From: a bacterium | GTDB lineage: Bacteria > CAIWAD01 | Length of the DNA: 64,000 nt | Direction: 5' to 3' | Assembly (NCBI GenBank): GCA_030685015.1 | Contig: JAUXWS010000095.1 | Location: 37,008-101,007, forward strand | In this document: piece after piece, positions 52,923 to 63,342 of the stretch | Numbering within the stretch: the first letter of the stretch is position 1 | Layout: every line of letters starts with the position of its first letter | The notes under the pieces: model-generated | The model's database searches: none | What the model saw: only the letters and a program-made list of their open reading frames with translations | Told to the model about the DNA's origin: nothing | Translations under genes and position numbers: made by a program

Positions 52923-54362
52923 CTATTTCACCAAAAGCAGTTTCTGCGTGGCCACCTCGCCCGCCCCCTCCAGCACGGCCAGATAGAGGCCGCTGGCCAG
53001 ATGGGAGGCGTCGAAGCTGACGGCATGCTCGCCGGCGGCGTGCAGGCCCTCGGTCAGGAGCGCCACCTCCTGGCCGGCCAGGTTCACCACGCTCAGCCGC
53101 AGCGTGCCGGCCTGCCGGTTCACGAAGGAGAGGGTGGTCGTCGGGTTGAAGGGGTTGGGCCAGGCTTCGCGCAGCTCCAGGGCGGCCGGCCGCAGCTGCC
53201 GCTCCACGTCGAGGGAGGTCCAGTAGTCGCCCAGGGCGCCGAAGGTGTTGATGATGGTGTAGGTGGGCTCGGCGTCGCTGATGGTGTGCACCCAGTCCGC
53301 CTGGAAGCCGGCCTCGTTGTCATGGCCGTTGGCCCCGTACTTGTAGGTGATCCGCGCCGAGCTGTACTGGTTGAAGAGAATGTCCCCCTCGAACCAGTCG
53401 CCCGTGGTGGGGACCAACTGGTAGGCGGGGGGCACCAGATCCCAGGGCCAGCTGTTCCAGGGTCCGCACACCGCCGTGAAAGTGACTTCCGCGTAGGAGT
53501 TCAGCCCCTGGTTGCTCTCGCCGGGGTGCTCCTCGAACCAGACGCGCACGGGCCACAGATTGACGGCGAAGTGCACGGTCACGTCCTGGCTGATGATGTC
53601 GTTCCAGGTGACGTTGTCGAACCAGGCCTCGTCCAGCACGATGTCCCCGTAGCCGTCCATGTCGTTGTCCGGAAGGCCCGTGGTGATGGGCACGAGGCGG
53701 TTGGCGACGCCCTCCCAGCGCGGCGTCAGCTCGTTCTGGTCCTCCAGGATGACGAACTTGTACTCCAGGTTGCCGGGCGCCTCCACATTGTCGAACTGGA
53801 TGTTGAGGAAGTAGTGGCCGGGATTGCCGCCCTCCTCGTTCATGATGACGGCGCCGCCCCAGTTGCCCAGGTTATCATGGCCGCCGCGCAGCACGATCCA
53901 GTCCGTGGCCGGGTTGAAGGTGCCGTTGGCCGTCATCACCTGCATGTTGACGCGGAAGAGCACCTCCACGTTGACCAGCTCGCCCATGCTGTCCTGGTTG
54001 TTGAACCAGACGGGGTCCAGGGTCTGGCCGCCCGCCTCCAGGGTGAAGGTGCGGTTGTCCCCCGATTCCCAAACGTCCCCTCCGGGCCGCACGATGACGT
54101 ACTTGAACCCCACCGGCTGGCCGATGAAGACGTCGTTCACGTCGAAGCTGCCGGCGAAGAGCATGTCCCCCGTGTTGGTGAGGGTGGGATTGGTCCCGCT
54201 CCAGTCGTTGAAATCACCCCGCACCACCACCTGGTCCGTGTCCGGGTTGAAGTTGCCCAGCTGCTGCTGGATGCCCATGCGGACCTGGAAGGTGACCGGG
54301 TTCACCGCCAGGGCGGTTCCGGCGACCAGCATCAGGCCCAGGAGGCCGCTGATGATTCTCAT
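52923..54362 (-). CDS. tandem starch-binding-like T9SS-sorted protein
   Basis: The 479-residue secreted protein (signal peptide MRIISGLLGLMLVAGTALA) has two or more repeats with the CBM20/48-type pattern: NFNPDTDQVVVRGDFNDWSG (about 36-55) and TFNPATDWIVLRG with DNLGNWGG (about 150-180), each followed by a beta-sandwich with GFKYVIV or EYKFVIL. A further domain includes VTVHFAVNLWPV. The tail WPNPFNPTTTLSFVNRQA to ASGLYLAVLEG and KLLLVK is a T9SS type A sorting domain. No catalytic domain is present, so it likely binds alpha-glucan at the cell surface. It is last in the run from the UgpC-type ATPase. Confidence 0.85.
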   Translation of the reverse strand: MRIISGLLGLMLVAGTALAVNPVTFQVRMGIQQQLGNFNPDTDQVVVRGDFNDWSGTNPTLTNTGDMLFAGSFDVNDVFIGQPVGFKYVIVRPGGDVWESGDNRTFTLEAGGQTLDPVWFNNQDSMGELVNVEVLFRVNMQVMTANGTFNPATDWIVLRGGHDNLGNWGGAVIMNEEGGNPGHYFLNIQFDNVEAPGNLEYKFVILEDQNELTPRWEGVANRLVPITTGLPDNDMDGYGDIVLDEAWFDNVTWNDIISQDVTVHFAVNLWPVRVWFEEHPGESNQGLNSYAEVTFTAVCGPWNSWPWDLVPPAYQLVPTTGDWFEGDILFNQYSSARITYKYGANGHDNEAGFQADWVHTISDAEPTYTIINTFGALGDYWTSLDVERQLRPAALELREAWPNPFNPTTTLSFVNRQAGTLRLSVVNLAGQEVALLTEGLHAAGEHAVSFDASHLASGLYLAVLEGAGEVATQKLLLVK

Positions 54363-54392
54363 GGTCCTCTCCTCGACTTAAAGGTTGATTGT

Positions 54393-62269: not shown

Positions 62270-63342
62270 GGGTGGTCCTGATCCAATCGGTGTTGCTCGC
62301 CCTCATGGGCGAAGAAGTGCCATCCCGTGGCTTTCACTCCCAGACGCACGCGACGCCCCGGCGCCAGCCCGGCCGCCGGGACCAGGCGGGCCACGCAGGC
62401 CTGGCCGCCCAGGACGAAGTAGGCCAGCGTCTCGTGGCCCATGTGTTCCACCACATCCAACTCCACCTCGGCCAGCAGGGGCAGGGCGGGGTCGAGATCC
62501 AGGCTTTCGGGGCGGATCCCCAGCAGGGCGGGGCCGGCGGGCAAGTCGCGCCCCAGCGCCAGCGGCTGCATCGCGCCCTGGGGTGTGAAGCCCCCGTGTC
62601 CCACCTCGCCCGGCAGGAAGTTCATGGCCGGGCTGCCGATGAAGCCGGCCACGAAGCGGTTGGAGGGACGCTGGTAGAGGACCATGGGCGAATCCACCTG
62701 CTGGATGCGCCCCTGGTTCATGACGACGATGCGGTCCCCCAGAGTCATGGCCTCCACCTGGTCGTGGGTGACGTAGACCATGGTGGTGCCCAGCCGCGTG
62801 TGGAGGCGGGCGATCTCGGTGCGCATCTGCACCCGCAGCTTGGCGTCCAGGTTGGAGAGGGGCTCGTCGAAGAGGAAGGCCTTGGGCTGGCGCACGATGG
62901 CCCGTCCCAGGGCCACGCGCTGGCGCTGGCCGCCCGACAGCTCGCGGGGGCGTCGATCAAGCAGCGACTCAACCGAGAGGATGGCCGCCGCCTCGCCCAC
63001 GCGCCGGTCGATCTCGCCCTCGGGCAGCTTCCGCATGCGCAGTCCGAAGGCCATGTTCTCCTTGACCGACATGTGCGGGTAGAGGGCGTAGTTCTGGAAG
63101 ACCATGGCGATGTCGCGGTTGGCCGGTGCCTCCTGGGTGACATCCCGGCCGTCGATGAGGATGCTTCCGCTGGAGACCTCCTCCAGCCCGGCGATCATGC
63201 GCAGGGTGGTGGACTTGCCGCAGCCCGAGGGGCCCACCAGCACGAGGAATTCTCCGTCCCGGATCTCCAGGTCGAAGGTCTCCACCGCTTGGAAGCCATT
63301 GGGGTAGCGCTTGCCGATCTGTTGCAATTGGATGGTGGCCAT
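62266..63342 (-). CDS. ugpC: MalK/UgpC-type sugar ABC transporter ATPase
   Basis: ATPase of a CUT1-family sugar importer (malto-oligosaccharides, glycerol-3-phosphate or similar). The 358-residue protein has Walker [14 protein letters not shown], signature [14 protein letters not shown], Walker [17 protein letters not shown]-loop [14 protein letters not shown] and a C-terminal regulatory OB domain ([24 protein letters not shown]). ATG 63340-63342 starts the family N-terminus [16 protein letters not shown]. No permease or binding protein is near, which is usual for shared MsmX/UgpC-type ATPases. It heads a run with the TonB receptor, and UgpC versus MalK cannot be told apart here. Confidence 0.92.

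Follow-up and report, generated by a model that had tools for sequence, protein, structure and literature searches.

Which protein, if any, takes the place of SusD where a TonB-dependent receptor is encoded among starch-related genes and no SusD accompanies it? SusCD is the textbook route of glycan uptake in the Bacteroidota, and the question arises here from a run of five minus-strand genes at positions 52923-63342 of a 64,000-nucleotide stretch of contig JAUXWS010000095.1 (assembly GCA_030685015.1, bacterial lineage CAIWAD01), hereafter called the window. All five open reading frames (ORFs) are present at these coordinates and encode, in the order of transcription, an ATP-binding cassette (ABC) ATPase, a TonB-dependent receptor, a secreted protein of 1325 amino acids (aa) that we call BIG, an outer-membrane beta-barrel of the PorV/PorQ family, and a protein with CBM20 starch-binding stretches and a type IX secretion system (T9SS) tail. 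An original prediction, based on the DNA alone, had taken the run for a SusD-free system of glycan capture and uptake, in which T9SS cargo is made next to its own shuttle. We find that the conserved unit is the trio of receptor, BIG and barrel, and that the ATPase and the CBM20 gene are extras specific to this locus.

The source genome (3.6 Mb in 105 contigs, 97% complete) was analysed with Pfam and NCBIfam profiles, and scores are given against the curated cut-offs. The window lies at the end of its contig (C95), which stops 658 bp upstream of the ATPase gene and so bounds the visible neighbourhood.

Conservation of the receptor, BIG and barrel genes

The five genes are as tightly packed as originally claimed. 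Their spacings along the run are -4, 26, 9 and 30 bp, the first being an ATGA (62266-62269) in which the stop codon of the ATPase overlaps the start codon of the receptor; the same junction is found in loci of two related genomes (L070 and L072). In a sister genus (G003, locus L070), one run contains malEF, malG, malK, receptor, BIG, barrel and CBM20 genes, and the source genome itself has four further contigs (C40, C28, C100 and C101) on which a receptor gene is accompanied by BIG-like and PorV-like ones. Of the loci read for comparison, L071, L073 and L087 had miscalled genes and were omitted or amended manually.

Genome contigs were scanned with an alignment of BIG, which returned 566 relatives; the locus statistics given here refer to the best 80, with BIG as the sole seed. 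According to the record titles, from which the taxon labels are taken, the 80 loci come from WOR-3/Stahlbacteria, Marinimicrobia, Ignavibacteria, KSB1, Calditrichota, Cloacimonetes, Fermentibacteria, Gemmatimonadetes, Chlorobi relatives, Bacteroidetes and others, and nearly all of them belong to metagenome-assembled genomes. Testable loci are those that extend far enough, 74 for the receptor and 67 for the barrel. A receptor gene lies directly upstream of BIG, or with the barrel gene in between, in 74/74, and a barrel gene adjoins BIG in 67/67; the order is receptor-BIG-barrel in 61 loci and receptor-barrel-BIG in 6. Median gaps within the trio are 25 and 19 bp, and in 59 of 59 cases the gene that follows downstream shares the strand. 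The distances of BIG, barrel and receptor also co-vary among within-genome paralogues (rho 0.86-0.91, permutation p 0.008-0.04; the test draws on 22 such pairs, taken from four genomes). Dozens of genomes share the core of three genes, whose arrangement is thus not the product of chance.

Gene order, whose loss was to count against the original prediction, is thus kept for all five genes in the sister genus and for the core throughout. It is very improbable that the five are ordinary neighbours, separately regulated and functionally unrelated. The ATPase and CBM20 genes do lie outside the conserved core, and a scan for promoter-like and terminator-like signals within the run gave chance level only, so that they speak neither way and were not used as evidence; against this stand the overlap, intergenic distances no wider than 30 bp and the five-gene order of the sister genus, while for the core the conserved order refutes such an explanation outright.

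The loci with the barrel gene between receptor and BIG are L130, L131, L134, L145, L146 and L150, and in most of those extending far enough a peptidyl-prolyl isomerase gene follows BIG. Peptidyl-prolyl isomerase genes of the PPIC/SurA-like type lie near the trio in 25 of the 80 loci (L077, L084, L107, L113, L136, L151, L160, L169 and others), where they perhaps provide a chaperone for barrel proteins.

A TonB-dependent receptor without SusD

The receptor (59426-62269, minus strand, 947 aa) has an N-terminal CarboxypepD_reg domain followed by plug and TonB barrel domains (PF13620, PF07715 and PF00593). It does not belong to the SusC/RagA subfamily, scoring 73 bits on TIGR04056 against a cut-off of 368. 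None of the five genes shows a SusD domain in Pfam, and the SusD families PF07980 and PF14322 are without a match in the whole source genome and in three near relatives, with Bacteroides controls positive; the receptor without SusD that had been claimed is therefore just that. Two more distant genomes hold SusD-like genes, on contigs other than those of their BIG loci. ExbD is encoded in the source genome.

A predicted beta-supersandwich in BIG

BIG (55422-59399, minus strand) starts with a Sec signal peptide whose sequence has no lipobox cysteine, which means that it is not a SusD-like lipoprotein. The full-length protein matches no Pfam domain. Among the first 750 mature residues of 62 homologues, no NCBIfam family was found and Pfam gave one weak hit in one member. 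An AlphaFold2 model of the N-terminal part, built with the alignment of these 62 sequences, predicts a beta-supersandwich for residues 21-625 (57525-59339; pLDDT 88.4, pTM 0.88). Aligned with VIA, this part is closest to the supersandwich of dextran dextrinase (Z 19.9 over 258 residues, 3.1 A), followed by glucodextranase (18.8), glycoside hydrolase (GH) family GH94 phosphorylases (about 18), GH116 (about 17) and galactose mutarotase (13.9); it shares its predicted fold with the supersandwich domains of GH15, GH94 and GH116 and with mutarotases, the best values being Z 18-20 over about 250 residues. Judged from the model, the N-terminal fold would be one associated with carbohydrate enzymes. 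The SusD fold is a helical one made of tetratricopeptide repeats, unlike a beta-supersandwich, and SusD is not among the fold matches listed for the beta-rich BIG model, which is a hint only. Seven tryptophans are invariant or nearly so (142, 146, 155, 240, 488, 553 and 642), and many Asp/Glu positions are invariant as well, a number of them within DNDGD-type motifs, for which calcium binding is possible.

These features could also be those of a surface enzyme, whose supersandwich cleaves or modifies a glycan and leaves the import of the product to the receptor. Glycan-active enzymes supply the domains that match the fold best, the endo-fucanases of GH174 (Z 15) work with a fold of this kind, and invariant acidic residues would suit catalysis. 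The model, however, is without a helical catalytic barrel, and the supersandwich matched is mostly the non-catalytic N-terminal domain of GH15, GH94 and GH116 proteins; several loci moreover encode separate GH13, GH94, GH31 or GH97 enzymes. Mutarotase chemistry is unlikely since no histidine of the 750-residue fragment is conserved above 0.81, a value reached at a single site within the fibronectin region described below, and galactose mutarotase activity was set aside for want of a conserved histidine. We therefore regard BIG as an unlikely enzyme, and prefer to see in it a partner of the receptor that captures glycans.

The C-terminal half was modelled less well (pLDDT 76). It is predicted to start with a fibronectin type III (FN3)-like domain at residues ~621-783 (57051-57539), which aligns over 90-97 residues with many FN3 domains at a Z of about 9. 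A variable stretch follows, and from about residue 1228 a C-terminal domain (CTD) of the PorZ/PorU type (55425-55718). The latter matches the CTD of PorZ (5m11) with a Z of 11.5 over 89 residues and 30% identity. Compared by sequence with solved structures, BIG matches a PorU chain through its CTD (E 0.003) and FN3 domains weakly, and nothing else. The VVPNPY motif that had suggested a T9SS tail is present near residues 1229-1234, but the tail stays below the threshold for type A, with 13.3 bits on TIGR04183 against a cut-off of 23, and its best profile is PorZ (NF052228), with 18-19 bits against a cut-off of 260 and a match confined to the CTD, so that BIG falls short of a full PorZ equivalog. 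Across 61 family members, 19 tails score as PorZ and 12 as type A.

Two further observations concern BIG relatives in the same genome. A divergent paralogue (L027:12484-15438) opens on CLRCHD, a CxxCH motif that could be a haem site, and belongs to a receptor/BIG/barrel trio of its own, and a BIG-like gene at L029:12502-15588 has neither an adjoining receptor nor an adjoining barrel.

The barrel: shuttle or anchor

The barrel gene (54393-55412, minus strand, 339 aa, GTG start) was correctly assigned to the PorV/PorQ family (NF033709, 186 bits against 90). It is neither a PorV equivalog (NF033710, 80 against 250 bits) nor a PorQ equivalog (NF033711, 78 against 220). SprA and C25 sortases are encoded in the source genome, which thus has a T9SS. 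A separate PorV candidate, encoded on contig C68, scores 214 bits on the PorV equivalog profile against a cut-off of 250, so that general shuttling does not have to fall to the barrel of the window.

Whether the barrel only carries BIG to the surface or keeps hold of it depends on how the BIG tail is treated. If it were a transient shuttle only, BIG would end attached to lipopolysaccharide (LPS) like type A cargo and work apart from the receptor, and both the C25 sortases and the shuttling of type A cargo by PorV in Flavobacterium johnsoniae (PMC12618676) are in keeping with this. We think it improbable nevertheless, since the separate PorV candidate would make a dedicated barrel beside every BIG redundant as a mere shuttle, and since the BIG tails favour PorZ over type A, the PorZ tail being one that stays bound to PorQ (PMC10202324). 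By analogy with PorQ and PorZ, then, the barrel is more likely a lasting anchor for BIG. The adjacency of cargo and barrel expected from the original prediction is found at every testable locus, and it is the role of the barrel that would change.

The source genome also holds twelve matches to C25-family peptidases, far more than a single PorU sortase would account for; one of these (on C87) adjoins a divergent PorV-like gene.

Sugar genes around the trio

The fifth gene (52923-54362, minus strand) encodes a secreted protein of 479 aa that bears out its description as a tandem starch-binding T9SS protein: CBM20 is matched in two stretches (PF00686, 40.1 against 23.3 bits), and its tail is of type A (PF18962, 34 against 27; TIGR04183, 33.8 against 23). 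We propose from these domains that it is a surface starch-binding protein.

At the other end of the run, the ATPase (62266-63342, minus strand, 358 aa) is of the CUT1 type. It belongs, in line with the MalK/UgpC identity first given to it, to the UgpC subfamily (NF008653, 484 bits against 432), remains below the MalK equivalog (NF008233, 392 against 568), and carries OB_MalK (PF17912) and TOBE_2 (PF08402) domains, both over their cut-offs. It is the best MalK-type ATPase of the genome, the next match having 43% over 235 aa. In the sister genus a MalE-MalF fusion and malG directly precede the ATPase gene in a contiguous run. Among the PF00528 hits of the source genome, a single permease set of the maltose type is seen, a MalEF-MalG pair on contig C102, with 68% and 76% identity to these sister-genus copies, and it is the likely partner of the ATPase of the window. 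The ATPase was considered as a member of the core and rejected: ABC ATPases occur in just 5 of the 80 loci, which puts it outside.

Fusion of a sugar-binding protein and a MalF-type permease in one ORF of about 700-750 aa is seen in several lineages (L035:9216-11468, L070:16478-18712, and also L107, L158 and L172).

Beyond the window, sugar-related genes recur in the flanks of the trio. Among 70 upstream genes, Pfam identifies 13 LacI regulators, 11 T9SS tails, 5 alpha-amylases, 2 GH31 and at least 1 GH97; among 68 downstream genes there are 19 T9SS tails, 12 CBM20, 4 GH94 and a few solute-binding proteins, permeases and SSF transporters. MalE, MalF or MalG homologues are present at 9 of the 80 loci. 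Eight genomes together contain 16 LacI genes and 20 BIG loci, and 6 of these LacI genes are no more than 10 kb away from a BIG locus where 0.23 would be expected, a roughly 25-fold excess by an expectation that ignores short contigs.

The module might instead import something other than glycans, such as peptides, metals or vitamins, the sugar genes reflecting general operon clustering. TonB receptors serve many ligands, and under half of the 80 loci show a sugar marker in the flanks read, many of which are short. Such an explanation is nonetheless quite remote, given the enrichment of LacI, the recurrence of MalEFG, GH13, GH31, GH97, GH94 and CBM20 genes across different lineages, and the sister genus, where the trio and a complete sugar ABC importer form one run.

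A model for glycan capture

We consider it reasonably probable, though well short of certain, that the locus is a SusD-independent outer-membrane module for the capture and import of alpha-glucans, with BIG as the glycan-capturing partner of the receptor, anchored by the barrel. BIG would be exported by the T9SS, and its beta-supersandwich would bind oligosaccharides on the cell surface, at the mouth of the receptor. Its PorZ/PorU-type CTD would stay gripped by the adjacent PorV/PorQ-family barrel, which would thus serve as its own anchor. The pair of BIG and barrel would sit on the receptor, at the place held by SusD in SusCD, and pass the ligand on to it, whereupon the receptor would move the glycan across the outer membrane, driven by TonB and ExbBD. 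The CBM20 protein could be a further surface binder that concentrates starch, like SusE/SusF, and in the periplasm the MalE-MalF fusion and MalG, powered by the UgpC/MalK ATPase, would finish the uptake. The physical complex, its ligand, a lid-like motion of BIG and its lasting anchoring are what we infer here from gene order, context and predicted folds.

Several points weigh against this reading, besides the few genomes (four) behind the co-variation test. The supersandwich call rests on VIA, as Foldseek alone is weak for the N-terminal half of BIG (best E 5e-3), and a shared fold of this kind, which occurs in enzymes and binding modules alike, does not reveal a function. Within the C-terminal half, prediction is poor for the middle part. 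With a simple BLAST set a sugar marker is found in only 34 of the 80 loci, so that the ligands of the trio may vary. In the source genome the permease genes lie on a contig other than that of the ATPase, and the beta-helix genes downstream of the run show no link to uptake.

What had been predicted as a SusD-free glycan capture system is thus supported by gene order, sugar context, the absence of SusD and the predicted fold, with its unit narrowed from five genes to three and its joint function a matter of interpretation. More tentatively, and with rather less confidence than in the module as such, we suggest that receptor, BIG and barrel assemble into a stable outer-membrane machine of three parts, where the supersandwich protein, sent out by the T9SS and held by its dedicated PorV/PorQ-family barrel, is the lid on a TonB-dependent glycan importer. 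The machine would be an independent counterpart of SusCD in many phyla of and around the Fibrobacterota-Chlorobiota-Bacteroidota (FCB) group. As the trio recurs in the same arrangement in many phyla, it is probably a widespread and overlooked way of sugar capture.

Neighbouring genes in the window

A gene for a GH13 alpha-amylase-family protein (38518-40770, plus strand; PF00128, 134 bits) lies 12 kb away from the run and is opposite to it in orientation; this gene is one of the GH13 genes of the source genome and a possible functional partner outside the operon. It is followed, up to 41849, by a gene for a short T9SS-tail protein with a weak match to a GH2 sugar-binding domain. Between these and the run, three consecutive minus-strand genes (41939-52475) encode surface proteins of 1394, 1225 and 869 aa with right-handed beta-helix or Chlam_PMP-type repeats; the first two contain PKD domains, and T9SS-tail matches are weak. 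An aromatic amino acid lyase gene (36633-38150, minus strand; 542 bits) has no relation to the operon.

Significance and comparison with known systems

If the proposed role is correct, Ignavibacteria, KSB1, Calditrichota, Marinimicrobia, WOR-3/Stahlbacteria and others would possess a second solution to glycan uptake, assembled from T9SS parts, in phyla in which the lack of SusD makes the genes for glycan uptake difficult to spot. A large family of proteins that no profile covers would gain a likely function, the extra PorV/PorQ-family genes of many genomes would be explained, and the combination of receptor, BIG and barrel would be a marker for such loci in metagenomes. Caldithrix abyssi grows on starch according to its genome paper, of which the passages returned by a term search contain no PorV, type IX or maltodextrin and mention TonB in connection with vitamins (PMC5317091). 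The trio is described nowhere in the open-access full texts that we searched. TonB receptors with non-SusD lids, SusD-free TonB sugar loci and T9SS cargo with neighbouring shuttles are each already known, and it is their combination that these texts do not contain.

The Sus/SusCD loci and utilisomes of Bacteroidota (PMC7618045) resemble the present locus in having a TonB barrel, an adjoining gene for a surface partner that binds glycans, the role proposed for BIG, extra starch-binding surface proteins, and clustered enzymes and regulators. Here, in contrast, there is no SusD and, by the curated cut-off, no SusC; the partner is a predicted beta-supersandwich that would be exported by the T9SS rather than lipid-anchored and has its own PorV/PorQ-family barrel, and the inner membrane is served by a CUT1 ABC importer. 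BtuBG is an experimentally shown case of a non-SusD lid on a TonB receptor (PMC10404256) and to that extent comparable, the lid being a proposal in our case; BtuG, however, is a lipoprotein, its ligand is vitamin B12, and it has neither a T9SS tail nor a PorV-like anchor.

For the proposed anchoring, the closest parallel is found in Porphyromonas gingivalis, where the CTDs of PorU and PorZ are retained and PorV and PorQ hold the two proteins; in a review, cognate PorV-like barrels are suggested to protect CTDs from cleavage (PMC10202324, PMC7463736). BIG, with a CTD closest to that of PorZ, would likewise be a surface protein whose uncleaved type A-like CTD stays in a PorV/PorQ-family barrel. 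Those pairs serve secretion and LPS attachment, whereas BIG and its barrel lie in nutrient loci beside a TonB receptor and exist in several paralogous copies, a natural set for testing such protection. Type B T9SS cargo such as SprB also has the gene of its cognate shuttle downstream, as in SprB-SprF and the pairing of type B CTDs with PorP (PMC12618676, PMC9143113), so that a T9SS cargo gene is followed by that of its own outer-membrane shuttle or anchor; the CTD class and barrel family are others, and those cargoes are adhesins with no link to a TonB receptor.

Finally, SusD-free TonB uptake of sugars together with an inner-membrane transporter, an enzyme and a regulator is known from the carbohydrate utilization (CUT) loci and the maltodextrin receptor MalA of Xanthomonas and Caulobacter (PMC1790865). 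Of such a transporter the window shows the ATPase alone, at the point where the contig ends, and the sister genus has the complete sugar ABC importer. The CUT loci and MalA do their work without a BIG protein, a PorV-like barrel or the T9SS, and it is these three that would set the present module apart.

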